Positions 554 to 23,432 of a stretch of DNA of 64,000 nucleotides are shown here, one piece after another. The stretch comes from Bifidobacterium sp. ESL0704 (GTDB lineage: Bacteria; Actinomycetota; Actinomycetes; Actinomycetales; Bifidobacteriaceae), in contig NZ_CP113929.1 in the NCBI RefSeq assembly GCF_029392075.1, forward strand, positions 1,054,001-1,118,000, given 5' to 3'. The translations under genes and the position numbers were made by a program. The notes beneath the pieces were generated by a model. That model searched no databases, was not told the DNA's origin, and was given only the letters and a program-made list of their open reading frames with translations. The stretch's first letter is position 1; the number at the start of each line of letters is the position of its first letter.

Positions 554-557
554 TGCG

Positions 558-4107: not shown

Positions 4108-5085
4108 TCATTGCGAGTCTTGCTCTGCAGTGTCAGCGCCGCTTGACGGCAACACGCTTGCAATTCCGGCATCCAATGGGTTCAGTCCCAGATTGGCCAT
4201 GAACCGCTGGATGATTTTACCGTCGTTGTCGGAGGTATTGAGCTTCGATATGGTGCCGTTGATGCGAATTGTCGGCGGGAAGAACCCCTTCGAGCCGTGC
4301 ATGTTGGTGAACAGCTCTTTCCGCTTTGAGTCATAGACCGTCACCTTGTTGATGAACGACGAGTACGGCGCCTTGACCGCGGCTTCGGCCACAGTACGGC
4401 TCACCCCGGCTTTTTCTGCCTGTGCGGCGATCTGTGCGTCGCTGACTTCCTTATAGTGAATGGCATCGGGCTGGAAGCCTTTTTCGAACAACGCGCCCAC
4501 GAATGCCGTTACATGTTCCGGATCGTGTTCGGACACATATGCCACCGCGTTGGCTGCCCTGGTGGCGTATCGGTTTGTGGAAGGAGTGTCGTACAAGTTG
4601 ACGATATGGAATTCAAGATTCACCTGCTGGGCGTCCTGCAGTTTTTTGAGGGTCGGGGTAAGCGCGCGGGTCAGGTCGCCGCAGTAGGGGCAGAGGAAGT
4701 CCTCATAGATCTCCACGGTCGGTGCGTCAGGATTGCGATCGGTTTGTCGGTATGCAGGCAAACCACCCTCCTCGGTGGAGTTGGCCGGCTTGTTTTTGAC
4801 CCTTTGCAGTTCGTCGTATGCCTGGGCCTGCGTTTCGGGAAGTTCTTGATTCGACTTCCTGCCCTGATTGATGCCGATGGAAAAACCGATGACCAGAATC
4901 AGCGCCATGACGATGATCATCGTAATGGCACCGACAATCAACTGGTTGCGACTGAGGCCACCGCCCCCGCGTTTCATCTGGGGGACGTCTGCATCAGGGC
5001 TTTCCGGGGGAGTGGATGTCAGAAGAGGCGGATTCTTCCGTCTTCTCGGAGTGTGTGATCGGGAATGTTTGCCGATTCTATCCAT
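4108..5085 (-). CDS. Membrane-anchored DsbA-like thioredoxin-fold protein (CPYC)
   Basis: This 325-residue protein has a basic, proline-rich cytoplasmic head, one membrane segment at about residues 49-71, and an extracytoplasmic thioredoxin-like domain. The redox motif is CPYC at residues 132-135 in YEDFLCPYCGD, followed by the helical insert typical of DsbA and by a cis-Pro-like FFPPTIRING stretch. It probably forms or shuffles disulfides in exported proteins. Its partner could be a VKOR- or DsbB-like membrane protein, but none is in the window. It is a paralogue of the gene at 5847-6935 and of the fragment at 5378-5554. The start is uncertain: a downstream ATG before KRGGGG is possible, though the longer form keeps the basic head. 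Confidence 0.8.
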   Translation of the reverse strand: MDRIGKHSRSHTPRRRKNPPLLTSTPPESPDADVPQMKRGGGGLSRNQLIVGAITMIIVMALILVIGFSIGINQGRKSNQELPETQAQAYDELQRVKNKPANSTEEGGLPAYRQTDRNPDAPTVEIYEDFLCPYCGDLTRALTPTLKKLQDAQQVNLEFHIVNLYDTPSTNRYATRAANAVAYVSEHDPEHVTAFVGALFEKGFQPDAIHYKEVSDAQIAAQAEKAGVSRTVAEAAVKAPYSSFINKVTVYDSKRKELFTNMHGSKGFFPPTIRINGTISKLNTSDNDGKIIQRFMANLGLNPLDAGIASVLPSSGADTAEQDSQ

Positions 5086-5846: not shown

Positions 5847-6935
5847 CTAAGACAAATACTTCTGCTGTATCGGCAACGCCTGCCCATCCGGTCCTATCGA
5901 AGGCATGATCTTGGCGTTGCCTACCTGTTGGCGATGAAGGCCCAATGAGTGAATAAGGGTGGGCTCGATATCCTGCAGGACGTGGAGTCGCCGATAGTGC
6001 CACATCGTTCCGTTGATGCAGATGGTGGGGGTGGAGAAACGGAACTCTTCCTGCATGTGGACATAGAGCTCCTTGCGTCTGATGGTGTATTTGGTCGCCG
6101 TGTCGACGTAGTCCGAATAGGTGCCTTTGACCGCTTGCCGGGCGACCGTTTTGCTGACCCCCGCCTTGAGCGCCTGCCTAACGATCTCTTTGTTGCTGAC
6201 CTTGCGATTGTTGCCTTTGTTCGGTTGATAGTCTTTGTCGAAAAGTCTGGTGGAGAAATCAAGCGCCTTGTCGGGTTCATGCGAGGATACATATGCAAAG
6301 GCGCTGGCGGCGCGGGTCGAATATTTGTTTCGGCTGTATGAATCAAGGAAATTGACGGGGTGGATGTAAAGATTGACCTGCTTGGCCTTCTGCATGAGCT
6401 TGAGCGGCTTGGAGATTCTGTGCTCTATGTTCGCGCAGCCGGGGCAGAAGAAATCGACATAAAGGTCGAGGTCCGGGGCCTTCGGGTTGTAGTCGCTGGC
6501 CTTGAACGTGGGCAGACCACCTTGCTCGGTCATGCCTATGGGCTTTTGCGCAAGGCTTTGCAATTGTTGGTAATCGCGTTTTTCCCCATGCTTGTGGTCC
6601 CAATAGCCGTATGTTCCGGCCACGATGATGATGACGGCCAGCACTGCGGCGATGATGGTCCCTACAAGGAATATCCCGCGTCCTTGATGGCTTTGACGGG
6701 CGTCAACTGTTGCCGCCTCGGTGAGAGACCGGGTTTCGGCGTTGCCGTCGAAAGGATACGCAACGTTTTGTGCGATGTCTGTTTCGCTTGGGGATTGGTC
6801 GCTGGTATCGGATGTGTTCTTTGCTGTTTGCGGAGAGTCATCGCTTTTTGACGTTTTTGCCGTTTGAGATTTGTCGGGCGTTTGGGGCGGTATCGATTGA
6901 CTGCTGTCGTCATTCTGATCGTTTCCCACTGCCAT
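5847..6935 (-). CDS. Membrane-anchored DsbA-like thioredoxin-fold protein (CPGC)
   Basis: This 362-residue protein is the second intact paralogue. It has a Ser/Thr/Asp/Gln-rich N-terminal region of about 80 residues, one membrane segment at about 88-111, and an outer thioredoxin-like domain. The active-site pair is CPGC at residues 164-167 in YVDFFCPGCAN, where the sister protein has CPYC. The change between the cysteines is expected to alter redox potential. The cis-Pro loop reads FSTPTICING. The two genes share orientation and are separated by the decayed copy, which points to tandem duplication. Substrates are unknown. Confidence 0.78.
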   Translation of the reverse strand: MAVGNDQNDDSSQSIPPQTPDKSQTAKTSKSDDSPQTAKNTSDTSDQSPSETDIAQNVAYPFDGNAETRSLTEAATVDARQSHQGRGIFLVGTIIAAVLAVIIIVAGTYGYWDHKHGEKRDYQQLQSLAQKPIGMTEQGGLPTFKASDYNPKAPDLDLYVDFFCPGCANIEHRISKPLKLMQKAKQVNLYIHPVNFLDSYSRNKYSTRAASAFAYVSSHEPDKALDFSTRLFDKDYQPNKGNNRKVSNKEIVRQALKAGVSKTVARQAVKGTYSDYVDTATKYTIRRKELYVHMQEEFRFSTPTICINGTMWHYRRLHVLQDIEPTLIHSLGLHRQQVGNAKIMPSIGPDGQALPIQQKYLS

Positions 6936-7333: not shown

Positions 7334-7684
7334 TTGTTTGGGCATATGGAATGTCAAATATTTAGAAGAAGTGAAAAAGACATCAAAAACCTGGGGGAGC
7401 CTCGAACCAGTCACGTTCATAAAGCGATTCATCGCATCTCGGTCAACCTTTGGCCTTTTACCGAAGACGGATATGGCAAACTTCTTGGCAACAAAGGTGG
7501 TAATAACTTGACCGGATTGCTGAAAGCTACATTAAAACACAACGATATAAGAATCGTCTACTCTCTTGAAAGAACCCAGGAATCGATGACGATAATCATT
7601 GTAGGAATTCGAGATGACCAGACCATTTATCAAGAAGCAGCAAGGAGATTGGAAAAAGTACTTAATATTAGTATACTTATATGA
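7334..7684 (+). CDS. RelE/ParE-family toxin
   Basis: A protein of about 115 residues with the RelE/ParE fold signature: an early KDIKNLG helix, then GLLKATLKHNDIRIVYSLE and a TIIIVGIRDDQTIYQEAARR ending, as in plasmid-type toxins that either cleave mRNA on the ribosome or poison gyrase. Sequence alone does not say which. The start is unsure: TTG at 7334 is close behind GAGGTG (7325-7330), and ATG at 7346 is the alternative. The toxin precedes its antitoxin, the reverse of the usual order. An AT-rich stretch with two TATAAT-like boxes (7682-7705) could give the antitoxin its own promoter. Confidence 0.75.
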   Translation: MFGHMECQIFRRSEKDIKNLGEPRTSHVHKAIHRISVNLWPFTEDGYGKLLGNKGGNNLTGLLKATLKHNDIRIVYSLERTQESMTIIIVGIRDDQTIYQEAARRLEKVLNISILI

Positions 7685-7717: not shown

Positions 7718-8023
7718 ATGGGAAGTTCAGAGCTTTTAGATAATCTGGTCTCGGTGAGCGAATTCAACCACGGCAAGGCAAGTCAGACGTTCAAACGCGT
7801 ACGTGATGATAATCCGGTTGTGGTCCTGAAAAACAACAAGCCCACTGCCGTTATCGTCAGTCCCAATGATTATCGACGGCTGACGGAAGCCGAAGAGAAT
7901 TTTGTGCTGTATCAGGAAGCCATGGAACGGTTGAAGGATGATAGCGTCAGACGCCTGACTGAGGAGGAAGTGTTCGGCAAAGAGCCAAAACTCGACGACG
8001 GCCACGAGCCCGAGTTCGAATGA
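7718..8023 (+). CDS. Phd/YefM-family antitoxin
   Basis: This 101-residue acidic protein begins with a DNA-binding domain: SVSEFNHGKASQTFKRVRDDNPVVVLKNNKPTAVIVSPNDYRRL is the Phd/YefM pattern (split here: SVSEFNHGKASQTFKRV then PVVVLKNNKPTAVIVSP). The C-terminal part is charged and probably disordered until it binds and neutralises the toxin encoded 33 nt upstream. Antitoxins of this family normally repress their own promoter with the toxin as co-repressor. The stop codon lies 44 nt before the cas3 ATG in the same direction, so the pair and cas3 are probably on one transcript. Confidence 0.82.
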   Translation: MGSSELLDNLVSVSEFNHGKASQTFKRVRDDNPVVVLKNNKPTAVIVSPNDYRRLTEAEENFVLYQEAMERLKDDSVRRLTEEEVFGKEPKLDDGHEPEFE

Positions 8024-8067
8024 GATAATCGGTTTACTATAAGTCCGGTAAGAAAGTGGGAAATACG

Positions 8068-10395
8068 ATGATGTATTATGCAAGAACAAGTGATCACGGT
8101 TATGAGACATGCGTAGAACATTTGGTGATGGCAGGGACATTGGCCGGAGCGTTCGCTAGCCAATTCAATAATCTTAATCAGGGAATGATTGCTGGCCTTT
8201 TCCATGATATCGGTAAATATTCTGCTGAATTTCAACAGATGATTAGAAATCCTGAAAAGCCGGCTCATGTGGATCATTCCAGTGCAGGAATGAAACTTGC
8301 CCAAGATAATAACAACCTTTCGATAGCGTTTGCCATAGGTGGACATCACGCTGGATTGCCTGACGGAGGCAGTCCAGTAGATGAAATCGATTTTGGCACC
8401 TTGTATGCAAGATTAAAACGACACATTCCCGATTTCAGTGGTTACGGGCAACAATTCGGAGAGATTGAATGGCCGAAACAAGAGTTTTACAAAGACCCAT
8501 ATTCTTTAATGATGTCAATTAGGATGCTTTTCTCAACGTTGATTGACGCGGACCGGTTAGATGCTGAATTCTTCACCAAGAATAGTGATCGGGCGGAGCG
8601 TAGCTTGCTGGTTTCAATCAAACATTCTTATGGAGACTGCTTGGCAGCCGAAGAAATGCCTGATATCTCGTCAATATTCAAGCAGTGTGAAAACGCGGCT
8701 GCTGTTATAAAAGAGCAGAACGATAAAATTCTGGTGACTCTTAATAAAATCAGTGAAAATAAAGCCCAGAAATTTTTTCAGAATAAAGATAAGTCCTTTT
8801 TGGATGAAAAGCGTTGTAAACTGCTACATGATTGCATTGATGCCGGGAAAGATGAGCATAAAGGCGATGGCATATACACCCTTACGGCGCCGACTGGTAG
8901 CGGTAAAACGAATGCTTCTATAAGCTTCGCTTTAGAGCATGCAGTTACGTATCATAAAAGCCGAATTATTTATGTAATCCCGTATACATCGATTATTGAT
9001 CAGACGGTTGATACGTTTGAAAAAGAATTTGGTGAGGAGAACGTTCTGCCGCATTATGCTGAAGCCTCATACCAATTGAAAGATGAAGATGAGAGGTCGG
9101 AAAGTGATGTTCAGCGAAATCTTGCTTCAGAAAATTGGAACTCTCCGATTGTAGTGACTACCGCCGTTCAATTTTTTGAAAGTCTTTATTCGAACAAAAC
9201 GTCAAAATGTCGGAAGCTGCATAACATTGCTAATTCGGTCATCGTTTTTGACGAGGCGCAGACTCTTCCTGTTTCGTATCTGAAGCCTTGTATTCAGGCG
9301 ATTTCGGAACTGACGCAACGTTATCATGTCAGTGCGGTGCTGTGCACTGCGACCCAGCCCGCGTTGGAATCATTGTTCTGTGAGGCATTTGGCAAAGATG
9401 ATTATAAGATACCTGAAATATCGCCGATGAATGAGAATGAATATCTAGCTTTTACGAGAAATCATATAGAGCTGAACGTCGATTCTACGATTACGCTTGA
9501 TGATCTTGCAGAAGAGTTGAATTCATATGAAGAGGTGCTTTGTGTGGTGAACACTCGCAAAGAGGCGCAATATCTATATTCGAAAATGGCTAAGACGGCG
9601 GGTGGCTATGAAAATGGGTATTTCTGCTTAACGACATTGCTCTGTGCGGTTGATCGCGTGAAACTCTTGGATGAGATACGAACACGTTTGCGCAATGACC
9701 TGCGATGCGTTGTGGTGTCTACTTCGCTGATAGAAGCCGGGGTTGATGTCGACTTTCCTGTTGCTTACCGAGAAGAAGCCGGGTTGGATTCAATATTGCA
9801 AACCGCTGGACGGTGCAATCGTGAGGGTAAGAGGCCTGTTGACGAAAGTGTCGTAAAGGTTTTTTCTACTAAAGAAGGCCGCACATCTCTGTTGTCTCAA
9901 AATGTTCAGGTTCTGCATTCTGTTATCGGCAAATTTGAGAATTTGGCTACACCAAATGCAATATATGAGTATTTTCGACAGCTGTTCAATGATAAAGGTC
10001 AAGATGCTCTTGACACCAAGAAAATACTCAAGGCACATCGAGAAGGTGTCAAAGGGAGAAGATGTCCTTTTGAAATAATCGCCAAGCGTTTCAAACTCAT
10101 TGATACGCCGACCATTCCTGTCTATATTCCTCTGCCGGGAGAGGGCGAAAATCTGTGTCGGCAGCTTATTAATGGAGAATACAGTAGAACGCTTTTTAGA
10201 AAACTAGGGAAGTATTCTGTCAATATTTGGCCGAAGCGTTTGCAAGAGCTACAAGAAGGTGGTGTCGTGATTGAGTATGGGGATGAGCTGCATCCAGAGG
10301 ATTCCTATTTTGTGTTAAGGAATTTAAATAATTACGACAGGTGCAGAGGACTATATTTTGAAAACTCAGCCATAACGGATGGAATTTTCATTTAA
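8068..10395 (+). CDS. cas3: CRISPR-associated nuclease-helicase Cas3 (type I-C)
   Basis: Cas3 is recruited by target-bound Cascade and degrades the displaced strand. The N-terminal HD nuclease shows FHDIGKY with H46-D47, plus HVDHSSAG and GGHHAG histidines. The superfamily 2 helicase has Walker A TGSGKT near residue 277, DEAQ near residue 395, and SLIEAGVDVDFP and QTAGRCNREG in the second RecA lobe. About 775 residues is normal for a fused HD-helicase of subtype I-C. I chose the ATG at 8068 after GTGGGAA; a GTG at 8056 in frame is the alternative. It follows the antitoxin by 44 nt, and 239 nt plus a crRNA-like unit separate it from cas5c. Confidence 0.97.
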   Translation: MMYYARTSDHGYETCVEHLVMAGTLAGAFASQFNNLNQGMIAGLFHDIGKYSAEFQQMIRNPEKPAHVDHSSAGMKLAQDNNNLSIAFAIGGHHAGLPDGGSPVDEIDFGTLYARLKRHIPDFSGYGQQFGEIEWPKQEFYKDPYSLMMSIRMLFSTLIDADRLDAEFFTKNSDRAERSLLVSIKHSYGDCLAAEEMPDISSIFKQCENAAAVIKEQNDKILVTLNKISENKAQKFFQNKDKSFLDEKRCKLLHDCIDAGKDEHKGDGIYTLTAPTGSGKTNASISFALEHAVTYHKSRIIYVIPYTSIIDQTVDTFEKEFGEENVLPHYAEASYQLKDEDERSESDVQRNLASENWNSPIVVTTAVQFFESLYSNKTSKCRKLHNIANSVIVFDEAQTLPVSYLKPCIQAISELTQRYHVSAVLCTATQPALESLFCEAFGKDDYKIPEISPMNENEYLAFTRNHIELNVDSTITLDDLAEELNSYEEVLCVVNTRKEAQYLYSKMAKTAGGYENGYFCLTTLLCAVDRVKLLDEIRTRLRNDLRCVVVSTSLIEAGVDVDFPVAYREEAGLDSILQTAGRCNREGKRPVDESVVKVFSTKEGRTSLLSQNVQVLHSVIGKFENLATPNAIYEYFRQLFNDKGQDALDTKKILKAHREGVKGRRCPFEIIAKRFKLIDTPTIPVYIPLPGEGENLCRQLINGEYSRTLFRKLGKYSVNIWPKRLQELQEGGVVIEYGDELHPEDSYFVLRNLNNYDRCRGLYFENSAITDGIFI

Positions 10396-10435
10396 ACGGT
10401 GGCTGTAAGATACAAGTTGTTTCTTCTGAACGGAT

Positions 10436-10501
10436 AAAAGGGTTCTCCGCTTTTGCAGAGAACCCGACTTAGTTCTATATAAATGTACCTATTTCAATCC
10501 T
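10436..10501 (-). ncRNA. crRNA-like RNA between cas3 and cas5c (CreR-like candidate)
   Basis: On the minus strand, TATGAT (10512-10507) is a good -10 box, with a weak -35 TTGAAG (10537-10532). Transcription should start near 10500-10501. The RNA then begins with GGATTGAAAT (10500-10491), identical to the last 10 nt of the CRISPR repeat and so to most of the type I-C crRNA 5' handle. A 25-nt spacer-like stretch follows (10490-10466), then a stem of 11 pairs with one G-T pair and an AAAA loop (10465-10440) and TTTT (10439-10436). The unit is about 66 nt, the same as one repeat-spacer unit. The hairpin can act as terminator and stand in for the repeat hairpin. Function is inferred by analogy with Cas-regulating RNAs. 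Confidence 0.65.
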
Positions 10502-10568
10502 CGTCCATCATATTTTGAATAATGAACGACTCTTCAACAATAGAAGAGACATGCTACAGAAGCAAGAA

Positions 10569-10598
10569 TTGTAAATATACCTGAAACTGTGATATACT
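10569..10598 (+). promoter_or_regulatory. Promoter of the cas5c-cas2 operon
   Basis: A -35 box TTGTAA (10569-10574) and a -10 box TATACT (10593-10598) are 18 nt apart, 36 nt upstream of the cas5c ATG. It would give the Cascade and adaptation genes a transcript separate from cas3. Confidence 0.6.
10570..10585 (-). promoter_or_regulatory. Predicted Cascade target of the crRNA-like RNA in the cas5c promoter
   Basis: On the minus strand a TTC PAM (10585-10583) is followed by AGGTATATTTACA (10582-10570). The spacer-like stretch of the RNA at 10490 begins AGGTACATTTATA. Eleven of 13 positions agree and the two mismatches are positions 6 and 12, which are flipped out in Cascade-bound guides; similarity ends at position 14. 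The site covers part of the -35 box and the spacer of the cas5c promoter. A short seed match of this kind would allow binding and repression without cleavage. Confidence 0.6.
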
Positions 10599-10634
10599 TT
10601 TAGAAAATTCAATGACGATTTGAGAGGAATGGCG

Positions 10635-11285
10635 ATGGCGATACAACTTGAAGTTTGGGGAAGCGGCGCATTGTTCACGCGTCCGGAAATGTCAGTGGAG
10701 CGAGTCTCTTACGATGTGATGACCCCTTCGGCTGCACGCGGTATTTTGGAAGCCATATATTGGCACCCTGGGATGAGATGGGTAGTTGACAAGATCACTG
10801 TGATGAATCCGATTAAGTTCGATAATATCAGGCGCAATGAAGTTTCCAGCGTGCTGAGTGCCAGAACTGCTCACTCGATGATGGAGGGAAAGGGAGGTGA
10901 AGTCATTTATACCTCGGATACTATTCAGCAACGGGCTTCGACTTTTCTGAGAGATGTTCACTACGTCATCGAAGCGCATTTTGATATGACCGATCGAGCG
11001 TCTAAAGAGGATTCTCCGGCAAAGTTCATCAGCATTTTCAACCGTCGTGTTGCAAAAGGTCAGTGTTTCCATCATCCTTATTTCGGGTGCAGAGAATTTC
11101 CTGTCGATTTCAAGTCTTGGGAAGACAAACAAAGTCCCAAGGGGTTCGAACAAGGCAAGCGGGATTTAGGATACATGCTATATGACATGGATTATCGTGA
11201 TCCTGAAAATATCAAGCCGTTGTTTTTCCGTGCCGAATTGAACGATGGGGTTATGAATCTCGAGAACGCGAGGGTAGTGTCATGA
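10635..11285 (+). CDS. cas5c: Cas5c (Cas5d) pre-crRNA endonuclease and Cascade subunit
   Basis: In subtype I-C there is no Cas6, and Cas5c both cuts pre-crRNA at the repeat hairpin and stays on the 5' handle in Cascade. The protein starts MAIQLEVWGSGALFTRPEMS, typical of the family, followed by VSYDVMTPSAARGILEAIYW and WVVDKI. I chose ATG 10635 because AGAGG (10623-10627) lies 7 nt upstream; TTG 10620 and ATG 10629 are in frame but too close to or ahead of that site. Length is 216 residues. Its stop overlaps the cas8c ATG (ATGA at 11282-11285), indicating translational coupling. Confidence 0.96.
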   Translation: MAIQLEVWGSGALFTRPEMSVERVSYDVMTPSAARGILEAIYWHPGMRWVVDKITVMNPIKFDNIRRNEVSSVLSARTAHSMMEGKGGEVIYTSDTIQQRASTFLRDVHYVIEAHFDMTDRASKEDSPAKFISIFNRRVAKGQCFHHPYFGCREFPVDFKSWEDKQSPKGFEQGKRDLGYMLYDMDYRDPENIKPLFFRAELNDGVMNLENARVVS

Positions 11286-13051
11286 TTGAAAATTTGATTC
11301 ACCTCTACGATGATCTTGATGCGAAACACAAAATACCTCAATATGGTTTAATTCCGCAGAATGTTTTGTATGGGCTCGATATTGACGATTCGGGCAAAAT
11401 CCTGAATATTCGAAAGCTTGGGGATTGGTCGCAAAAGCGTCCGGTCCACATGGTTTCCGTGCCTGCACGAGTGACTAGGTCTTCGGGAGTCAAAGCTAAT
11501 TTCCTGTGTGATACGCCGCAATATTTGTTGGCGGATGACACTAACGCAAGGAACGGCCGAGAGAAGAAAGCCTTTAAAGCCGCTGCGGAATTGCATTTGC
11601 GATTGCTTTCAGGAATCGATGATTCAACGGCAAAGGCGATATGTGCATTTTTCGCACGGTCCCCACAGGTGTCAGAAGCCAAGAATCTTCTGACTGCTGA
11701 TGAGTGGAAACATGCGTCCACTGCCAATTTTGTCTTTTACCACAATGACCGTTGCGTGATGGAAGACGAACGAATTGTGCATGCGTGGCTTGAAGATTTC
11801 TCCGAATCGGGAACCGATGGTGAGGTCTTGGAAAGTATCGTGGACGGTTCTGAAGTTCAACCGGCTGCGATTCATCCTAAAATCAAAGGGGTGTGGGGCG
11901 CGCAATCGAGTGGTGGTGCTTTGATTTCCTTTAATAAGGAATCTTTCAATTCATACGGGAAATCTCAGAACGCCAATGCTCCGATGAGCGAGGAACAAGC
12001 CTATAAATACACCGCTGCATTGAACTATCTTTTGGCTGATAATGACCATGTTGCTCATGTTGGTGATACGACTATCGTGTATTGGGCGGAATCCGGGAGT
12101 GTCGAATATCAGGACTTCTTTAGCATGGCTTCTGACTTTGGAGGCGGTTCATCGTCTGATGGTGATTTAGAAGCCAACTTGGGAACTGCCATCAACGCGC
12201 TCGCTGCAGGTAGAGTTTTTGACGTAGGCAATTTTCAGCTGAATCCCGATGAACATTTCTATGTGCTGGGTTTGTCTCCAAATTCGGCGCGTATTTCGGT
12301 ACGGTTCTTTCTCAAAGACACCTTCGGTGCATTCTTGCAGAATATCGTCAAGCATTACTCGGATTTGAGTATTCAAAGACCTATTTTTGATAAGAATCCC
12401 CGTATGCCTTTGTGGCGTTTGCTGAATCAAACCACCAATCAGGCAATAAAGGCCGACGTGCCGAGTGTGCTGGTAGGCGGCGTGCTGCGTTCGGTTCTTT
12501 TAGGTGTTCCATATCCGGCGTCGTTGCTTTCAAACGTCGAATTACGCATCAGATCCGAGAAAGACATCAATGCGGATAAAGCCGCCATTATTAAAGCCTA
12601 TTACTTAAGACAACCTAATTCTGAATGCCCCAAGGAGGTATTGCAAATGAGTATCAATGAGGAGAGTGAGAATGTTCCTTATGTGCTGGGAAGAATGTTC
12701 TCGTTGTATGAGCAGATTCAGCAAGCGGCGAATCCTGGCATCAATACTACGATTAAAGACAAGTATTTCAACAGCGCCTCTACGACACCTTCGCTGATAT
12801 TCCCGATTCTGGGAAATCTGGCGGAAAAACATCTTCGGAAGCTGGGCAGGTCGGAGCCTGGGCGAAAGGTCAATCTCAGCAAGGCTTTACAACGTCTCTC
12901 TTTGAGACTCGGAGACCAATATCCCGCCAGGCTTTCTTTGCCTCAGCAGGGCGCTTTCCAACTTGGCTATTACTTCGAGACTCAGAAGCATTACGAGAAT
13001 AAAACGGTAAAGCAGGAGAATTCCAACAAACAAGGAGAGAACAATGAGTGA
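11282..13051 (+). CDS. cas8c: Cas8c (Csd1), large subunit of type I-C Cascade
   Basis: This 589-residue protein starts MIENLIHLYDDLDAKHKIPQ, and contains motifs of the Csd1 family such as LNYLLADNDHVAHVGDTTIVYWAE (in parts: LNYLLADNDH, TTIVYWAE) and FYVLGLSPNSARISVRFF. In Cascade it recognises the PAM and helps recruit Cas3. It overlaps cas5c by 4 nt and cas7c by 8 nt. The last 134 codons also form an internal reading unit with its own ribosome site (see cas11c). No sign of damage is seen. Confidence 0.96.
   Translation: MIENLIHLYDDLDAKHKIPQYGLIPQNVLYGLDIDDSGKILNIRKLGDWSQKRPVHMVSVPARVTRSSGVKANFLCDTPQYLLADDTNARNGREKKAFKAAAELHLRLLSGIDDSTAKAICAFFARSPQVSEAKNLLTADEWKHASTANFVFYHNDRCVMEDERIVHAWLEDFSESGTDGEVLESIVDGSEVQPAAIHPKIKGVWGAQSSGGALISFNKESFNSYGKSQNANAPMSEEQAYKYTAALNYLLADNDHVAHVGDTTIVYWAESGSVEYQDFFSMASDFGGGSSSDGDLEANLGTAINALAAGRVFDVGNFQLNPDEHFYVLGLSPNSARISVRFFLKDTFGAFLQNIVKHYSDLSIQRPIFDKNPRMPLWRLLNQTTNQAIKADVPSVLVGGVLRSVLLGVPYPASLLSNVELRIRSEKDINADKAAIIKAYYLRQPNSECPKEVLQMSINEESENVPYVLGRMFSLYEQIQQAANPGINTTIKDKYFNSASTTPSLIFPILGNLAEKHLRKLGRSEPGRKVNLSKALQRLSLRLGDQYPARLSLPQQGAFQLGYYFETQKHYENKTVKQENSNKQGENNE
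12647..13051 (+). CDS. cas11c: Cas11c small subunit from an internal start within cas8c
   Basis: Within cas8c and in the same frame, AAGGAGG at 12632-12638 stands 8 nt before ATG at 12647. It is one of the best Shine-Dalgarno sequences in the operon and has no other obvious use. Translation from here gives 134 residues starting MSINEESENVPYVLGRMFSL, largely helical in appearance, equal to the C-terminus of Cas8c. In other type I-C systems a separate small subunit, Cas11c, is made in just this way and is needed to assemble Cascade. I infer the same here. Confidence 0.75.
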   Translation: MSINEESENVPYVLGRMFSLYEQIQQAANPGINTTIKDKYFNSASTTPSLIFPILGNLAEKHLRKLGRSEPGRKVNLSKALQRLSLRLGDQYPARLSLPQQGAFQLGYYFETQKHYENKTVKQENSNKQGENNE

Positions 13052-13979
13052 AATTACCAATGACGCGATCAAGAACCGCTATGATTTCTCGATTCTGTTC
13101 GACGTCGAAAACGGTAATCCGAACGGTGATCCCGATTCGGGGAACATGCCAAGGATTGATACGGAAACTGGTTTGGGACTGGTGACGGATGTGTGCCTGA
13201 AGCGCAAGATTCGTAACTACGTTCAATTGGTTGACGGAGATAAGGCTCCTAACCGTATCTATATTCAGCAGCGTGTTCCACTGAACAGGCTTGATGATGA
13301 GGCTTTGGACTCTGTCGGAGTTGATACGGACGCAGCCAATGCGGAAAAGGATATCAAGAGGGTCAAGAAGGACGACCCGGATTTGGACAGGAAGATTCGT
13401 GACTATATGTGCTCGAACTTCTTTGATATCCGAACGTTCGGTGCCGTGATGACTACTTTTGTTAAAGGTAGCCTGTCTTCCGGCCAAGTACGTGGGCCGG
13501 TTCAGCTTGGTTTTTCACGTTCTATTGATCCCGTCATCCCTCAGGAAATCACTATTACGCGAGTGGCGATTACCACTGAAGCGGATGCGGAAAAGAAAAA
13601 CAATGAGATAGGAAGGAAATACATTATTCCTTACGGTTTGTACCGTGCGAATGGGTATATTTCTGCGAAGTTGGCTGAGCAGACTACAGGTTTTTCGGAT
13701 GCAGATTTGGAACTGCTTTGGAACGCAATCCTAAATATGTTCGAATTCGATCGGTCGGCTGCGAGAGGCAATATGGCGGTTCGGAAGCTGTACGTGTTTA
13801 AGCACAGCAATGATTTAGGCGATGCTCCTTCATATAAGTTGTTCGACAGTGTCAAGGTGAATCGTAAACCAGAAGTATCGGCGCCACGGACTTTTAACGA
13901 TTACGACGTGAAATACGATGCGACAAGCGTTCCAGATTCCGTACAGGTTACCGAAAAAGTAGATGGTATCACGCTGTGA
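13044..13979 (+). CDS. cas7c: Cas7c (Csd2), crRNA-coating backbone subunit of Cascade
   Basis: The 311-residue protein begins with the family hallmark FSILFDVENGNPNGDPDSGN and contains FDIRTFGAVMTT and RGPVQLGFSRSIDPV, the RAMP-type features of Csd2. Several copies wrap the crRNA spacer and impose the kink at every sixth base. The start ATG lies within the last codons of cas8c, preceded by AAGGAGAG. The stop overlaps the GTG start of cas4. Confidence 0.97.
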   Translation: MSEITNDAIKNRYDFSILFDVENGNPNGDPDSGNMPRIDTETGLGLVTDVCLKRKIRNYVQLVDGDKAPNRIYIQQRVPLNRLDDEALDSVGVDTDAANAEKDIKRVKKDDPDLDRKIRDYMCSNFFDIRTFGAVMTTFVKGSLSSGQVRGPVQLGFSRSIDPVIPQEITITRVAITTEADAEKKNNEIGRKYIIPYGLYRANGYISAKLAEQTTGFSDADLELLWNAILNMFEFDRSAARGNMAVRKLYVFKHSNDLGDAPSYKLFDSVKVNRKPEVSAPRTFNDYDVKYDATSVPDSVQVTEKVDGITL

Positions 13980-14683
13980 ATTCCACATCTTCTACCTATC
14001 GTGAGCTGCTGAATGGGTCTACCGATTATCCTGAGGATGATTGGTTGGCCCTTTCGGGCATTCAGCATTATGCCTTTTGCAAGCGGCAATGGGCGTTGAT
14101 TCATATCGAACAGCTTTGGCAGGAAAATGCACGTACGACTGCAGGTCAGCTGGAGCATGCACGTGTAGACGATTACGGCCAGTCCGAGACTCGGGGCGAT
14201 CTGCTGATCTTGCGCAGTCTGAGAGTGTTCTCACGAAAACTGGGCATCACGGGGATCTGCGATGTGGTGGAGTTCCACCGTGACCATGACGGCGTTGAGC
14301 TCAATGGTCGTGAAGGGAAGTGGTCGGCGTATCCGATCGAGTACAAGCACGGTCATGCCAAAGCAAAAGACGAAGACCGGCTTCAGCTTTGTGCCGAAGT
14401 GATGTGCCTGGAAGAAATGCTTGCATGTGATATTCCGCAGGCGGCATTGTTTTATCGGGAAACAAAGCGTCGGGAAATCGTCGAGCTTGATGACGCCTTA
14501 CGGGACACCGTGGTCGGTGTTACCCGGCAAATGCATGATCTTTATAGTCGCGGGTATACGCCGAAAGTCAAGCGCACGAAATCATGTAACGCTTGTTCTC
14601 TAAAAGATTTGTGTCTTCCGGAACTGAGCAAGACTCCATCCGCGAGGAAATATATCAACGAACATCTAGCTGTGGTTGAGTGA
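13976..14683 (+). CDS. cas4: Cas4 exonuclease of the adaptation module
   Basis: Cas4 trims prespacers and selects for the PAM together with Cas1-Cas2. The 235-residue protein shows HYAFCKRQWALIHIEQ, with the first iron-sulfur cysteine, a RecB-like nuclease core including GICDVVEFH and YPIEYKHGHAK, and the C-terminal cluster SCNACSLKDLC with three more cysteines. All four cluster ligands are present. The start is GTG at 13976, overlapping the cas7c stop by 4 nt. Confidence 0.95.
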   Translation: MNSTSSTYRELLNGSTDYPEDDWLALSGIQHYAFCKRQWALIHIEQLWQENARTTAGQLEHARVDDYGQSETRGDLLILRSLRVFSRKLGITGICDVVEFHRDHDGVELNGREGKWSAYPIEYKHGHAKAKDEDRLQLCAEVMCLEEMLACDIPQAALFYRETKRREIVELDDALRDTVVGVTRQMHDLYSRGYTPKVKRTKSCNACSLKDLCLPELSKTPSARKYINEHLAVVE

Positions 14684-14713
14684 ATAATGAATAGTGATAA
14701 TGGAGGAGGAACA

Positions 14714-15745
14714 GTGAGGCGATTACTCAATACGTTGTTTGTACTTAGCGAGGACGCTTATTTGTCCCTTAAGGACGACAACGTCGTCGTTCAGATCAAA
14801 GATGCACGTTTGGCTTCAATCCCTCTGCGATCCATAGAGGGAATTCTGTGCTTTAGCTACAAGGGTGCGTCGCCGGCGTTGATGGGCAGATGTGCGGAGT
14901 TCGGGGTGTCGGTTTCGTTCTTTTCTCCGCGTGGACGTTATTATTGTTCGATTCTTGGTGAGAAAAATCGTAATGTGCTGTTACGAAGAGAGCAATTCAG
15001 GGTCGCCGATGACGAAAGCCGGAGCTTGCCAATTGCCAAGTCTTTTATTTTTGGGAAAGTGTTTAATTGCCGCTGGGTATTGGAAAGAGTCAGACGCGAC
15101 CACTCCATGCGCGTAAATGCGGAGCGGCTTTCTTCTCAAAGTGCTTTATTGAAAACTGCTCTTAATGAAATAAATGCTTGTTCAACGCTGGATGAGCTGC
15201 GCGGAGTGGAGGGGAACGCGGCCAAAGACTATTTTGGTGCCTATGACGATTTGATTCTTCATTCGAAAGACGATTTCTATTTTGAAGGCCGAAGCCGCAG
15301 ACCCCCGATGGACCGGCTCAATGCGCTGATGTCTTTCATATACACACTTTTGACAGGAGATTGCACGGCGGCATTGCAAGGTGTAGGGCTTGATCCATAT
15401 GTCGGATTTATGCACGTCGATAGGCCTGGCCGGGTCTCGCTGGCTTTGGATCTGATGGAAGAATTTCGACCGATAATTGGCGATCGGTTCGTTTTGAGTC
15501 TTGTCAATACCGGTGCGATTAAGCCGAAAGATTTTGAAGAACGGGAAAACGGCGGCATTTTTCTCAATGATCAGGGACGAAAAATCGTCTTAGCCGCGTG
15601 GCAGAAACGTAAGCAGGAACAAATGACACATCCGTTCCTCAATGAGAAGATATCGTGGGGTCTTGTCCCTTACGTGCAGGCATTGCTCTTAGTGCGAGCA
15701 TTGCGTGGGGATTTAGACGCATATCCACCATTACTATGGAAATGA
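14714..15745 (+). CDS. cas1: Cas1 integrase
   Basis: Cas1 inserts new spacers at the leader end of the array. I chose GTG at 14714 because GGAGGAGGA (14702-14710) immediately precedes it and translation gives MRRLLNTLFVLSEDAYLSL, the usual Cas1c start; an ATG at 14687 adds nine residues without a ribosome site. The 343-residue protein contains the metal ligands in LRGVEGNAAKDYF (Glu) and YVGFMHVDRPGRVSLALDL (His and the following acidic residues in MEEF). The stop TGA overlaps an ATG of cas2. Confidence 0.96.
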   Translation: MRRLLNTLFVLSEDAYLSLKDDNVVVQIKDARLASIPLRSIEGILCFSYKGASPALMGRCAEFGVSVSFFSPRGRYYCSILGEKNRNVLLRREQFRVADDESRSLPIAKSFIFGKVFNCRWVLERVRRDHSMRVNAERLSSQSALLKTALNEINACSTLDELRGVEGNAAKDYFGAYDDLILHSKDDFYFEGRSRRPPMDRLNALMSFIYTLLTGDCTAALQGVGLDPYVGFMHVDRPGRVSLALDLMEEFRPIIGDRFVLSLVNTGAIKPKDFEERENGGIFLNDQGRKIVLAAWQKRKQEQMTHPFLNEKISWGLVPYVQALLLVRALRGDLDAYPPLLWK

Positions 15746-16261: not shown

Positions 16262-19200
16262 GTCGCTCCCTTCGCGGGAGCGTGGATTGAAATCTGCTCC
16301 ATCAGGTCGAGATAGCCTGTCAGTCGGGTCGCTCCCTTCGCGGGAGCGTGGATTGAAATAAGTTCGTGCCCAACGTGGCCGGTTCCCTCGGTTGTCGCTC
16401 CCTTCGCGGGAGCGTGGATTGAAATCTTCATCGACCCGGAATCGGTGACCATGTGGGAGGGTCGCTCCCTTCGCGGGAGCGTGGATTGAAATTTGTGGGT
16501 CTTGAGCGTGGCGGTGTCGATACTGGTCGCTCCCTTCGCGGGAGCGTGGATTGAAATTCGGGACACCACCCGGCGCTACAGCCGAAAGGCCCGTCGCTCC
16601 CTTCGCGGGAGCGTGGATTGAAATCAGTTCGCCGCTTTTACGTCTTCGATTAGTTCGGGTCGCTCCCTTCGCGGGAGCGTGGATTGAAATATATCTCAAG
16701 CAGCTCGACAAACTGAGCGCGGCAAGTCGCTCCCTTCGCGGGAGCGTGGATTGAAATTGGATGTGGATTGAGTCGCCGTTGTTGGTGTCGATGTCGCTCC
16801 CTTCGCGGGAGCGTGGATTGAAATTTGCAAATCGTGCAATCCGTCGTCAATGTCATACGTCGCTCCCTTCGCGGGAGCGTGGATTGAAATTAAACGTATT
16901 ACGCGAATGCGATAAGATGGACAGTCGCTCCCTTCGCGGGAGCGTGGATTGAAATCGGTTCCATCGGCGATGCTATCGGTGTCGACAAGCGTCGCTCCCT
17001 TCGCGGGAGCGTGGATTGAAATTGTAAGGGCGGCAAGGTGTATTTCACTATGTCGGGTCGCTCCCTTCGCGGGAGCGTGGATTGAAATATGATGTCCCTG
17101 AGCATCTGCATTGAATCAGCCGGTCGCTCCCTTCGCGGGAGCGTGGATTGAAATTTCGTCCCGAACGTGCTTCGCGCCCATTCCAGCAGTCGCTCCCTTC
17201 GCGGGAGCGTGGATTGAAATGTTCCGTAGGGCAGGTTCTTCTGAAGGTGGATGGTCGCTCCCTTCGCGGGAGCGTGGATTGAAATTTATCCAGCCGCGTG
17301 ATGTCAGTTTTTGGGACATGTCGCTCCCTTCGCGGGAGCGTGGATTGAAATAAGGGTATATAAGGGGACAATAACGTCCATAGAGGGTCGCTCCCTTCGC
17401 GGGAGCGTGGATTGAAATTTCCATTGGTTTTTATTCGCAACCCCCGCATGGCGTCGCTCCCTTCGCGGGAGCGTGGATTGAAATTTGGGACATGTTGCCT
17501 GTGTATGTCGCTGAACCTGGTCGCTCCCTTCGCGGGAGCGTGGATTGAAATTTGACCACGCTTGGCATGTGCGCCGCGTTGTACGTCGCTCCCTTCGCGG
17601 GAGCGTGGATTGAAATCTCTACACCAGACTCCAATCGCGACGCAAAACCGTCGCTCCCTTCGCGGGAGCGTGGATTGAAATCCTTCAATATCCGGACTGC
17701 AATCCGGAAGTGGTCAGTCGCTCCCTTCGCGGGAGCGTGGATTGAAATACATTGAGGCTCCATTGGTGGTCGACGATCTCCGGGTCGCTCCCTTCGCGGG
17801 AGCGTGGATTGAAATCATGTCGCGGCCGAGCTCGGAGCCTGTCTTGCGTGTCGCTCCCTTCGCGGGAGCGTGGATTGAAATAAGGATTCATCGGCTCAGA
17901 TGCTTCAATGGTCCAGTCGCTCCCTTCGCGGGAGCGTGGATTGAAATTTTGCCCAGGACATGAAGGGGTCAGTGGTCGTGCGTCGCTCCCTTCGCGGGAG
18001 CGTGGATTGAAATTGGACCACGGGGGTGACGATTGGCAGCAGTTGCTGGTCGCTCCCTTCGCGGGAGCGTGGATTGAAATATTTCCTGCCACCGAGCCAA
18101 CCGACCAACACCGTCAGTCGCTCCCTTCGCGGGAGCGTGGATTGAAATGTCTCGAATGCAAAACGATACGCCATGATGATACGTCGCTCCCTTCGCGGGA
18201 GCGTGGATTGAAATAATGCCGTTGATGAGGCCCTGGATGATGTTCTGTGTCGCTCCCTTCGCGGGAGCGTGGATTGAAATATCCCCAAACGCAAAGATCA
18301 GCGCTACTGCTCGCGTCGCTCCCTTCGCGGGAGCGTGGATTGAAATGACTCGATTTGCTTTCGTGTCTCCTCGGGCATGGTCGCTCCCTTCGCGGGAGCG
18401 TGGATTGAAATTGCATGATGCTGGCAAGTCGTGGCTTCGCCTATTCGTCGCTCCCTTCGCGGGAGCGTGGATTGAAATCGGTGATGTCCTCACAGCCGAT
18501 GGTCACCACGTGGTCGCTCCCTTCGCGGGAGCGTGGATTGAAATTATTTCGATACCGGCATCTTCAACGGAGGCAGCGTGTCGCTCCCTTCGCGGGAGCG
18601 TGGATTGAAATCTATAGGCCAGGAAATGGAGTTCGTCTATGACAGGTCGCTCCCTTCGCGGGAGCGTGGATTGAAATAGGTTATCGGTCTCATGCCATTT
18701 GTTGACGTTCGGTCGCTCCCTTCGCGGGAGCGTGGATTGAAATAGGTTATCGGTCTCATGCCATTTGTTGACGTTCGGTCGCTCCCTTCGCGGGAGCGTG
18801 GATTGAAATTCCATGCATCCCGGCTGTTTCCCGTTCCTGCAGGAGTCGCTCCCTTCGCGGGAGCGTGGATTGAAATTCGTTGGCGAACGAGGTGACGGTG
18901 AACGTGAGCTTGTCGCTCCCTTCGCGGGAGCGTGGATTGAAATACGCACTACGCGCTTCCAGCAGACGGGCTCGTTGGTCGCTCCCTTCGCGGGAGCGTG
19001 GATTGAAATCCATGCACCCGAGTCCGTTAGGAACAATGAGAGGGTCGCTCCCTTCGCGGGAGCGTGGATTGAAATTTTTTTGTATGCTTAAGCAGGTCCA
19101 TGGGGTTTAGTCGCTCCCTTCGCGGGAGCGTGGATTGAAATTGGACCACGGGGGTGACGATTGGCAGCAGTTGCTGGTCGCTCCCTTCGCGGGAGCGTGG

Positions 19201-22200
19201 ATTGAAATCGAACTTTATCGTTGAGGGTGCGTTGGCGAATGTGTCGCTCCCTTCGCGGGAGCGTGGATTGAAATCCATGCACTCGAGTCCGTTAGGAACA
19301 ATGAGAGGTCGCTCCCTTCGCGGGAGCGTGGATTGAAATACCCCGTGGCGACGCTGGATTGCACCCCGTCCGGTCGCTCCCTTCGCGGGAGCGTGGATTG
19401 AAATCACTACTCGCGTCAGCCCTCACCGAAGGTGTACGTCGCTCCCTTCGCGGGAGCGTGGATTGAAATTTGAGCTGGGAGCCGATGAGGGTGGCCATTT
19501 CGTTGTCGCTCCCTTCGCGGGAGCGTGGATTGAAATCCGGACGGCATCATCGCGGTCAAGGGCAACGCAGGGTCGCTCCCTTCGCGGGAGCGTGGATTGA
19601 AATTCTTTCGCCGCGACCAACGTCGATAAAGGACCGGTCGCTCCCTTCGCGGGAGCGTGGATTGAAATGGAACGGTCAAAATCATCAATCAGTTAGGGCA
19701 GGTCGCTCCCTTCGCGGGAGCGTGGATTGAAATCATACGGCCTTGGAGGGCTATACCCGCCTTGGTGGTCGCTCCCTTCGCGGGAGCGTGGATTGAAATC
19801 TGCTCACAAACCAGTCCCCCTCAGTGGGATCGCGTCGCTCCCTTCGCGGGAGCGTGGATTGAAATGAGCTCAGCAAGTCAATCTCCATCAGCGAGACCGG
19901 TCGCTCCCTTCGCGGGAGCGTGGATTGAAATTTCTACCATGTCACCGGCATCAACAAACTGGCTGGTCGCTCCCTTCGCGGGAGCGTGGATTGAAATACG
20001 TCGATGCCGTCGCTGGCCGCCACGCCGTTGCCGTCGCTCCCTTCGCGGGAGCGTGGATTGAAATCCATCGGCAACATTCGCCAACGCACCCTCAACGAGT
20101 CGCTCCCTTCGCGGGAGCGTGGATTGAAATACGGACGGAATCAGGGACTCAACACTCGCCCATGTCGCTCCCTTCGCGGGAGCGTGGATTGAAATACACC
20201 GGCACGCTTGCAGGCGCTGTCGAACCATGTCGCTCCCTTCGCGGGAGCGTGGATTGAAATTTCAACGGCGACGTTGACACAGACCCGAAATCCTTGTCGC
20301 TCCCTTCGCGGGAGCGTGGATTGAAATTTTGCCGGCAACACTGCGGGCTATCTGCATAAGGTCGCTCCCTTCGCGGGAGCGTGGATTGAAATAGCAAAAG
20401 TGGGACTCATACGCCAACGTGAACAAGTCGCTCCCTTCGCGGGAGCGTGGATTGAAATTTGACTGGTACGATAAACTGGTTGCACTCTACCCGTCGCTCC
20501 CTTCGCGGGAGCGTGGATTGAAATTCTGAGGATGAAGGCAAAACCATCCTCGCAGGCGTGTCGCTCCCTTCGCGGGAGCGTGGATTGAAATCTAGCGGAC
20601 TCGGGTGCATGGGAAAAGGTGGCTGTCGCTCCCTTCGCGGGAGCGTGGATTGAAATATCGACGAGTCCGCGAGCGCCGTCACCGTGGGTGGTCGCTCCCT
20701 TCGCGGGAGCGTGGATTGAAATGTCATCGACCGTACAAAAGTACCGGTAGGCCATGTCGCTCCCTTCGCGGGAGCGTGGATTGAAATATGGCCCGAATGT
20801 CAGCCTACAAGGATAGGCTTGTCGCTCCCTTCGCGGGAGCGTGGATTGAAATACGGTCTGATGAAGCATCCCAGCCCGTTGCCGGGTCGCTCCCTTCGCG
20901 GGAGCGTGGATTGAAATACTGCCGACGTTCTTCACTGCCTCGCGGCTCTTGTCGCTCCCTTCGCGGGAGCGTGGATTGAAATGCATTGTATGGCAGTCAG
21001 GTGAACACCGATGACGGGTCGCTCCCTTCGCGGGAGCGTGGATTGAAATGCTGTCGTGTCAACAAATCAGGTCATGGCTGACGGTCGCTCCCTTCGCGGG
21101 AGCGTGGATTGAAATTGGAAGGCTTCGCCGAAAACAGCAGGATCCTTGCGGTCGCTCCCTTCGCGGGAGCGTGGATTGAAATTGGGGCTTCCATCTGGAG
21201 GGCTTCGTGCTAGGCGTCGCTCCCTTCGCGGGAGCGTGGATTGAAATCTGACTGTGGAAGGATACTGCAACATCAAGGCCGAGTCGCTCCCTTCGCGGGA
21301 GCGTGGATTGAAATCATTCGTATTGGGGTGCGTTGCAGGCCGGCGCGGAGTCGCTCCCTTCGCGGGAGCGTGGATTGAAATCGGATCACGGAACCGTGCA
21401 GGCAGGGTGGCGCGGGCGTCGCTCCCTTCGCGGGAGCGTGGATTGAAATACCGCCGACGTGACGACCTGCATGGACATGGCCGTCGCTCCCTTCGCGGGA
21501 GCGTGGATTGAAATACCGTAGCCGAGGACAACGAGCTCGTACGCCGCATGTCGCTCCCTTCGCGGGAGCGTGGATTGAAATCTCTTATTGGCGTTACCAG
21601 GCAGGGGAAATCCTGGTCGCTCCCTTCGCGGGAGCGTGGATTGAAATTTCGCCAGGTCGTTCCATGCCGAACAGCGCATGAGTCGCTCCCTTCGCGGGAG
21701 CGTGGATTGAAATTTTTTAACCGACAATTAAATAATAACACAGTCGAGTCGCTCCCTTCGCGGGAGCGTGGATTGAAATTGACACCATGCCATGGCAGTA
21801 TTACAACGGCGTGGTCGCTCCCTTCGCGGGAGCGTGGATTGAAATCTCGATCCCCAAGGATTGCAAAGCTAGCACCCTAGTCGCTCCCTTCGCGGGAGCG
21901 TGGATTGAAATTAAACCTCTTGAGGCGTATGCAAAGAAGAACGGGTCGCTCCCTTCGCGGGAGCGTGGATTGAAATATCGTGCTCTTCTTCAACTCGATG
22001 CCGACCGGGGTCGCTCCCTTCGCGGGAGCGTGGATTGAAATCATATTACAATGAGCTGTATGCTAAAAATAACCAGTCGCTCCCTTCGCGGGAGCGTGGA
22101 TTGAAATCAATCAGCAAGACTTTACATGGGCGAGACAAGCAAGTCGCTCCCTTCGCGGGAGCGTGGATTGAAATCCCTCCAGATAGCGCTGAATACGGTT

Positions 22201-23432
22201 TGAGCCATGTCGCTCCCTTCGCGGGAGCGTGGATTGAAATATGTTCTTGGACACCGGCAACGGGTGGAGGTCGGGTCGCTCCCTTCGCGGGAGCGTGGAT
22301 TGAAATAAGACAGCACTCCACGACTTCATCGAAGCCATCGGTCGCTCCCTTCGCGGGAGCGTGGATTGAAATTGACATGGAAACGCGAACAATCCCAAGG
22401 GCCTACGGTCGCTCCCTTCGCGGGAGCGTGGATTGAAATTGTGCACGCTGCGTCAGAGCTTCGAGCGGCTTGCGTCGCTCCCTTCGCGGGAGCGTGGATT
22501 GAAATTGGAACGCGTGAAGCATACGATCAGCGTGCTGGGGTCGCTCCCTTCGCGGGAGCGTGGATTGAAATCGATTCGCAAATAACGGACAGTCTGGAAG
22601 ATTCGGTCGCTCCCTTCGCGGGAGCGTGGATTGAAATTTCAATCGAATATTATAGAATCTTATTTTTGCATGTCGCTCCCTTCGCGGGAGCGTGGATTGA
22701 AATAATATGATACATATTTTGAGGGCGTGAAAGTCCGGGTCGCTCCCTTCGCGGGAGCGTGGATTGAAATAAATATGCGGGTATTACCTCTGTATCGCGT
22801 CCAGGTCGCTCCCTTCGCGGGAGCGTGGATTGAAATAAAATATAATATGATGAGAAAGGGCTTTCGCTTTAGGTCGCTCCCTTCGCGGGAGCGTGGATTG
22901 AAATTGGAAGGCGCCGTTATCGTCGCCGACGTTGATAGTCGCTCCCTTCGCGGGAGCGTGGATTGAAATATGCTTCCCGCTCCCTGTCTTGCTGACACCA
23001 CCTGTCGCTCCCTTCGCGGGAGCGTGGATTGAAATATGCTTCCCGCTCCCTGTCTTGCTGACACCACCTGTCGCTCCCTTCGCGGGAGCGTGGATTGAAA
23101 TATGCTTCCCGCTCCCTGTCTTGCTGACACCACCTGTCGCTCCCTTCGCGGGAGCGTGGATTGAAATTTCCCCGACAAGACGGCGTAGGCCGTGCCAAGC
23201 AAGTCGCTCCCTTCGCGGGAGCGTGGATTGAAATAACATGACGTGGTAGTGGGGCTTCTTGTGTTCGCGTCGCTCCCTTCGCGGGAGCGTGGATTGAAAT
23301 TCGCTGGAAGCGGTGAGCTTCTCCGGTCGCAGGCGTCGCTCCCTTCGCGGGAGCGTGGATTGAAATCTGGACGCGAGCACCTATTACCGGAGATTGTGGC
23401 TGTCGCTCCCTTCGTGGGGCGTGGATTGTGAT
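16262..23432 (+). CRISPR. Type I-C CRISPR array, 109 repeats and 108 spacers
   Basis: Counted repeat by repeat: 108 identical 32-nt repeats and one degenerate 31-nt final copy at 23402-23432. The repeat starts GTCGCTCCCTTCG and ends GCGTGGATTGAAAT. CGCTCCC and GGGAGCG form the hairpin cut by Cas5c, leaving a handle that ends GGATTGAAAT. Spacers are 33-36 nt. Spacers 37 and 38 are identical; 102, 103 and 104 are identical; 27 and 44 are identical although far apart. Spacers 42 and 46 differ by one base and one nt in length, and spacer 66 overlaps them on the other strand. Spacers 45 and 58 also overlap on opposite strands. All open frames in this interval are repeat artefacts. Confidence 0.99.

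Follow-up and report, generated by a model that had tools for sequence, protein, structure and literature searches.

The window, by which we mean the whole 64,000-nt stretch analyzed here from the Bifidobacterium sp. ESL0704 genome (one contig, 2.4 Mb), contains a type I-C operon in the order cas3, cas5c, cas8c, cas7, cas4 and cas1, followed by a CRISPR array (Table 1). All 108 repeats of the array are identical, and its spacers are 33–36 nt long. Three spacers recur (two of them twice, one three times). Spacer 42 is similar to part of the same array read on the opposite strand. When the array spacers were compared with the window under a rule like the guide-target rule described below, only spacer 42 matched, and only within the array. 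Upstream of the operon, an open reading frame resembling Phd/YefM-type antitoxins (7718–8023, plus strand) lies immediately 5′ of cas3; the reading frame before it (7334–7684) returned no match in the family search. A thioredoxin/DsbA-like gene pair (4108–5085 and 5847–6935, both minus strand) is found close to the CRISPR locus, and a class I tRNA synthetase occupies 525–3938. An Rfam search of the whole window at gathering thresholds returned a single tRNA and nothing else.

Table 1. Features of the type I-C locus and of the element between cas3 and cas5c, in window positions
Feature	Position	Strand	Remarks
cas3	8056..10395	+	TIGR01587 cas3_core 143 bits, TIGR01596 cas3_HD 71 bits
U tail (TTTT) of terminator	10436..10439	-	read directly
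Terminator hairpin at element end, 11 bp, loop 4	10440..10465	-	-20.8 kcal/mol, z -6.9
Guide, 25 nt	10466..10490	-	positions 1-5, 7-11 and 13 match target
Half repeat GGATTGAAAT, predicted 5′ handle	10491..10500	-	same sequence as the array repeat end
Degenerate repeat hairpin, 11 bp, loop 7, predicted Cas5c substrate	10501..10529	-	3′ arm holds TATGAT
Candidate element promoter TTGCTT-17-TATTGT	10537..10565	-	weak, 7/12; located by visual inspection and comparison with relatives, absent from the promoter-scan results
Predicted cas5c promoter TTGTAA-18-TATACT, TG before -10	10569..10598	+	consensus scan
Target (protospacer start) AGGTATATTTACA	10570..10582	-	
PAM TTC	10583..10585	-	
cas5c	10635..11285	+	TIGR01876 179 bits; alternative ATG at 10629
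cas8c	11282-13051	+	
cas7	13044-13979	+	
cas4	13976-14683	+	
cas1	14687-15745	+	
CRISPR array, 108 repeats of 32 nt	16262..23366	+	repeat GTCGCTCCCTTCGCGGGAGCGTGGATTGAAAT, repeat starts 16262 to 23335

A crRNA-like unit and its target in the cas3–cas5c gap

Between the cas3 stop and the cas5c ATG at 10635 lies a gap of 239 nt, whose minus strand reads, in order, an 11-bp hairpin, a half repeat, a 25-nt guide and a terminator with TTTT. Direct reading thus bears out the first-pass annotation, which had described a half repeat, a 25-nt spacer-like stretch and a hairpin with TTTT on this strand. The half repeat reproduces the final 10 nt of the array repeat without a mismatch. Outside the plus-strand array, the window holds 15 places that resemble it with at most one mismatch, and the exact sequence GGATTGAAA is found only at 10490 on the minus strand. 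The 99-nt element strand folds with −33.3 kcal/mol (z −5.7), and the degenerate repeat hairpin directly 5′ of the half repeat with −11.6 kcal/mol. Because the array repeat itself folds into a 7-bp hairpin with an 11-nt tail, the element resembles a repeat and guide with an altered, longer stem. A repeat-like sequence joined to a guide lies outside the array and next to cas genes, as is characteristic of the CreRs, cas-regulating RNAs reportedly described by Liu et al. (2023, Cell Host Microbe, doi 10.1016/j.chom.2023.08.005). The two-repeat form of a mini-CRISPR was not found here; a terminator, and not a second degenerate repeat, follows the guide.

The guide begins with AGGTACATTTATA, which matches the target 10582–10570 on the same strand except at positions 6 and 12, and TTC precedes the target. 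The corresponding pattern, AGGTANATTTANA, occurs twice in the 2.4-Mb genome, namely in the element and at the site 92 nt away, and its backward control pattern occurs once. Both the reading and the genome-wide count confirm an earlier claim that the guide start matches a site at the cas5c promoter with exceptions at 6 and 12 and TTC in front. In plain identity the match is ordinary (11/18, under the cut of the PAM-blind match list described below); what makes it distinctive is the PAM, the seed pattern, its position and its recurrence in relatives. With uniform base composition, a TTC together with eleven fixed bases would be expected by chance about 5 in a million times on both strands of a 740-nt stretch. 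The window's match is also the weakest among the 34 loci assembled below, with 11 of 15 scored positions, compared with 13–15 in 30 loci and 12 in three. As in CreRs, it is a partial seed match (1–5 and 7–11) with the correct PAM to a cas promoter, here a promoter called by consensus scan. Its length is likewise limited, to 13 nt, which would presumably keep Cas3 from cutting.

The consensus scan found 1 site upstream of cas5c and shuffled sequences yield an average of 1.4, so the cas5c promoter is plausible and no more. The first-pass annotation had placed the target between the −35 and −10 boxes of cas5c. Its promoter location stands; the target is not entirely between the boxes, since the predicted −35 (TTGTAA, 10569–10574) overlaps it. 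Only 30 nt separate the −10 (ending at 10598) from the alternative ATG at 10629, and the targeted promoter runs directly into cas5c with no toxin gene beneath it, again as in CreRs.

Recurrence of guide-target pairs in other type I-C loci

The survey covered 124 distinct loci, with as much as 740 nt taken about each cas5c start. Of these, 30 came from the family (189 genomes), 80 were the best of at least 582 named contigs encoding a relative (mostly Clostridia), and 14 came from 394 genomes of the class, a set from which the window's own locus was excluded to avoid a double count. Loci L024, L025, L032, L034, L035 and L036 were dropped before counting as refetches of L001–L006. Allowing no more than one mismatch to GGATTGAAA, we counted 66 candidate half repeats in 51 loci. 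A strict test, which demanded a half repeat, exact matches at positions 1–5 and 7–11, TTC and a target in the same locus, was passed by 26 of the 124 loci, with the element on the minus strand in 26/26. When each guide was compared with the other loci as a control, 10 of 8118 comparisons matched, every one of them between sister elements. Without the PAM requirement there were 29 self matches, preceded by TTC in 26, TTT in 2 and TTA in 1. A search blind to both PAM and periodicity (at least 14/18) gave a match within the home locus for 30 of the 66 candidates, and for 12 of 524 in a sample of other loci.

From this PAM-blind list, eight further loci (L012, L013, L085, L086, L088, L092, L097 and L103) were added by eye, four of them with TTT or TTA instead of TTC, for a total of 34. 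L099, the plus-strand candidate of L102, L093, L091, L049, L042 and L015 were not taken because of strand, PAM or repeat likeness. By source, elements are present in 11 of the 30 family loci, 23 of the 80 named contigs and none of the 14 class loci. The guides vary widely among lineages, yet match their own locus. In 17 of the 34 loci the target and the best-scoring predicted cas5c promoter overlap (9.7 expected, P 0.006), and in ten of the 17 others, all on named contigs, it lies 0–10 nt upstream of the top-scoring promoter. The terminator was also considered as a leftover second repeat and rejected as such: GTCG or GTCAC at guide offset 16–36 was found in 4 of 30 elements, compared with 2.0 in shuffles, and 135 of 1000 shuffles scored as high. 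(L006, L012, L013 and L059 were omitted from this comparison and from the PAM-blind match profile.)

Within the genus, 6 of 112 genomes, the window's included, encode a Cas5c close to that of the window at E 1e-20; a broader family model found 18 Cas5c. Five of the six close loci carry an element and a local target behind TTC, the repeat end being ATTGAAAA in L004. Apart from the sisters L003 and L006, the guides of these five are unrelated or much changed. In four of the five the plus strand carries the target; in the window the minus strand does. In the sixth, L005, the gap is short, and half repeat and target are both absent; only a hairpin resembling the element terminator of its relatives is retained. 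Among window-family loci lacking the element, the cas3–cas5c gap measures 22–57 nt in 17 of 19, which leaves no room for one, and 136 and 161 nt in L005 and L017. The gaps measure 239–321 nt where the element is present (L021 left out), all lengths being counted from the match start, which in loci found with the family model lies up to some 45 nt past the ATG. It is as if the element accompanied a separate cas5c promoter.

In the main test 90 of the 124 loci have no element, or 87 if three loci of family f26 are included. A closer look at 26 element-less loci, mostly with long gaps or on short contigs, gave mostly nothing, with low scores in L079, L116 and L091, the last from matches that are array repeats. 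In L096 the half repeat is exact but no target passed the cut-off used; the locus does hold a target that lacks one base within the matched stretch, perhaps part of a decaying guide-target pair. Eight plasmid-borne type I-C loci (three of them from Streptomyces) contained no pair of half repeat and target, nor did a wider look at L152. In L057, L094, L104 and L111 the target or element lies up to about 630 nt from cas5c, far enough for an unseen gene to fit in, and these four may hold CreTA-like modules.

Family f26, with large genomes, contributes 6 of the 14 class loci. Three of these (L126, L127 and L130) carry, on the plus strand, a unit whose end resembles GGATCGCAAC, a different repeat ending from that of the main set, and whose target lies 128–132 nt upstream behind TTC; the array of L130 ends in GGATCGCAAC. 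Seed matches are 10/10, 9/10 and 10/10, respectively, with little match past position 11 in L130. In all three, the self match scored above every one of 300 shuffles; cross comparisons scored at most 8. In an earlier, looser test L126 scored 12 and L127 scored 11; 2 of 258 cross-locus controls also reached 12, so for these two loci the evidence is the later shuffle test.

A shared pairing code and joint change of guide and target

Selection of the strict pairs fixed positions 1–5, 7–11 and the PAM; the remaining positions can be read freely. Across 24 strict pairs (the near-identical sisters L006 and L059 omitted), 5 match at position 6 and 8 at position 12, which is the level of chance. Positions 13–17 match in 23, 22, 20, 16 and 14 pairs and position 18 in 10, and positions 19–30 are at chance. 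In type I effectors every sixth guide base is flipped out, and the mismatches at 6 and 12 fit that geometry. The end of the match near position 17–18 likewise fits a limit that would stop Cas3. In a type I-B system with the guide cut back to 24 nt, the target was repressed to 10.80%, and neither interference nor primed adaptation occurred (PMC10989794).

Five similar pairs were taken as orthologous, judged from the likeness of guides and flanks. L002 and L033 differ by three paired changes in guide and target (positions 2, 3 and 15) and by one guide-only change at position 17, which was already unpaired. L048 and L057 show five joint changes (2, 4, 7, 10 and 14) and one target-only change at 15. 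Counter-cases exist: L011 differs from L012 and L013 by a target-only change at position 10, where the latter two carry a target mismatch, and L053 differs from L056 by a target-only change at 17. Guide differences within the first 17 nt are confined to position 6 or 12 in the pairs L003/L006 and L053/L056. The comparison of cas3–cas5c gaps called for by the first-pass annotation thus yielded recurring half repeats and, in two orthologous pairs, guides and targets that change jointly.

The repeat end of an element tracks the array variant of the locus in which it sits. Where arrays read GGGTTGAA (L055, L085, L086, L088 and L094) the elements carry GGGTTG, in 5/5; with 21 readable GGATTG arrays the elements carry GGAT; and in L021 an array reading TGAATTGAAAT is paired with an element reading TGAATTGAAAA. 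For this comparison, 6 of the 34 loci had no array in the DNA examined, and the L048 array was read in part. Nine elements depart from their own array at the final base of the repeat end (six GAAAA, three GAAAC).

Transcription, function and relation to known RNAs

Where the element's RNA begins bears on how its 5′ handle would be made. The earlier proposal of a direct start that yields the handle without Cas5c is not supported, as TATGAT sits in the 3′ arm of the 11-bp hairpin, at the position of the repeat. That proposal, in which a CreR RNA begins right at the half repeat and Cas5c is dispensable, draws on the placement of TATGAT 6 nt before GGATTGAAAT, with TTGAAG 19 nt before TATGAT; together they match 9 of 12 consensus bases, compared with 7 of 12 for the upstream alternative. 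A spacing of 19 nt exceeds the usual spacer length of sigma-70 promoters. In the window, a sigma-70 scan upstream of the hairpin found nothing convincing, the best score being 7, no better than TTGCTT-17-TATTGT. The relatives point the other way. A hairpin ending 9–11 nt before the guide can be drawn in 34/34 elements, in a search restricted to ends 9–12 nt before the guide and run without a control; when the 42 nt preceding the guide were folded freely, the repeat end was often paired too. The best promoter upstream of the hairpin scores at least 9 in 19 of 34 elements; 16 of these are among the 23 elements on named contigs (mostly Clostridia), with the −10 ending 3–14 nt before the hairpin. 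Given the recurrent hairpin and these upstream promoters, a start upstream of the hairpin followed by Cas5c trimming appears likelier than a ready-made 5′ end, which we regard as improbable. It is Cas5c that cuts crRNA in type I-C (PMC7684278).

We propose, with a probability of about 0.9, that the element is a guide RNA of CreR build in a type I-C locus, predicted from its sequence to load Cascade and to repress the operon that makes Cascade. The first-pass reading of a crRNA-like, CreR-like element aimed at its own cas promoter is thereby strongly supported: the arrangement is present in 34 of 124 loci with differing guides that match their own locus, guide and target change jointly in two pairs, and L005 has neither half. 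From these features we infer RNA production, maturation by Cas5c, loading into Cascade, repression, and relief by crRNA or anti-CRISPRs. A minus-strand RNA would start just upstream of the repeat-like hairpin; Cas5c would cut at the hairpin base and leave the GGAUUGAAAU handle, and the terminator hairpin would serve as the RNA's 3′ end. Cascade loaded with this guide would pair only at positions 1–5, 7–11 and 13, probably too few for Cas3 cutting, and on the cas5c −35 region it would act as a road-block. Ordinary crRNAs, anti-CRISPR proteins or loss of Cascade would then remove the block and raise transcription of cas5c-cas8c-cas7 and downstream genes.

Three other accounts of the element have to be weighed against autoregulation. 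It might be an antitoxin RNA like those of CreTA or CrePA, its guide repressing a toxin promoter with cas5c a mere bystander. CreA RNAs do share the build, with a TTC PAM, pairing at 1–5 and 7–11 and a degenerate repeat; the Haloarcula hispanica RNA has a terminator where a second repeat would stand (PMC8501985). An antitoxin-like Phd reading frame also precedes cas3. Against this, the 30 nt between the −10 and the ATG at 10629 leave no room for a toxin gene, and we found no toxin RNA or protein under the targeted promoter, which leads straight to cas5c. The Phd-like reading frame is 2.5 kb away, and the genome has no third AGGTANATTTANA match. We consider this account very unlikely.

Slightly less credible still, in our estimate, is that the element has no function, being either what remains of a mini-array that has decayed or a resemblance due to chance. 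The window taken singly would allow it: its match is only 11/18 raw and 11/15 scored, the lowest of the set, and single-locus statistics would be modest. That account has to contend with 34 loci whose widely differing guides show the same 6-periodic match to their own promoter region, with a control of 10/8118 consisting of sisters throughout, and with the joint guide-target changes in two orthologous pairs. We give the least credence to a host-borne decoy comparable to the phage Racrs, a solitary repeat that ties up Cas proteins and disables Cascade. Racr RNAs do mimic repeats, and a type I-C example, RacrIC1, comes from a Bifidobacterium prophage (PMC10651486). A decoy, however, has no need of a guide, and in this locus and 33 others the guide has a matching target nearby; each of these targets lies upstream of cas5c, the region that the survey covered. 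The element also lies between cas3 and cas5c, and not, as Racrs do, on viral or prophage DNA away from cas genes.

Returning to autoregulation, a wider picture seems to us to have about even odds. Gut type I-C Cascade, among the commonest effectors, may be widely self-governed by Cas5c-matured guides, with lineages re-inventing their pairs and keeping the code (up to three blocks of five bases, at 1–5, 7–11 and 13–17, behind TTC), which would be enough to park Cascade and too short for Cas3. In the window, a single bound complex would cover two −35 boxes, that of the cas5c promoter and that of the element's own divergent candidate promoter, forming a thermostat that fires when AcrIC proteins or RacrIC decoys seize Cascade. 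If autoregulation holds, many type I-C systems set their own level, and blocking Cascade with anti-CRISPR proteins or RNA decoys would raise cas expression. Some three dozen natural guide-promoter pairs would also gauge the extent of pairing that a type I-C complex needs to bind without cutting, and such a rule would be of use where native Cascades are employed for CRISPR interference. A caution follows for experiments in I-C strains, where deletion or overload of Cascade may itself alter cas expression.

SpyCas9 autorepression uses long-form tracrRNA. Like the proposed function of the element, it is a case in which an RNA-guided effector represses its own operon (PMC13131331); it differs in being type II, and its RNA and effector are unrelated to the element. 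The Racrs resemble the element as solitary repeat-like RNAs that would bind Cas proteins, with a type I-C example among them (PMC10651486), but they are virus-encoded decoys, whereas the element stands beside cas5c and has both guide and target. CreA of CreTA, in its one-repeat Haloarcula hispanica form, comes closer: it shares the TTC PAM, the seed at 1–5 and 7–11, a degenerate first repeat and a terminator in place of the second (PMC8501985; PMC9458426). For a CreA-type pair of H. hubeiense, seed changes abolish repression and matching changes rescue it (PMC8501985). CreA, however, represses a toxin promoter, whereas the element matches the predicted cas5c promoter.

The element is most like the CreRs, which are called widespread in type I and V-A systems (PMC12737573) and have been reported for types I-B, I-E and V-A (PMC13131331). 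We found no type I-C CreR in the literature searched, and the supplements of the original CreR report may list one; with that reserve, a type I-C CreR appears new, within a class already known. Shared features are a crRNA-like unit outside the array, the absence of a toxin gene and a partial match to a cas promoter (PMC13131331, PMC12737573, PMC12948488), and the element is predicted, like a CreR, to load its own effector, repress cas genes and respond to crRNA load and anti-CRISPR proteins. Unlike the CreRs of types I-B, I-E and V-A (PMC13131331), it belongs to type I-C, in which Cas5c and not Cas6 cuts crRNA. It also differs in build, as a single repeat followed by a terminator, with a match of 13 nt here and of 15–17 nt in most of its relatives.
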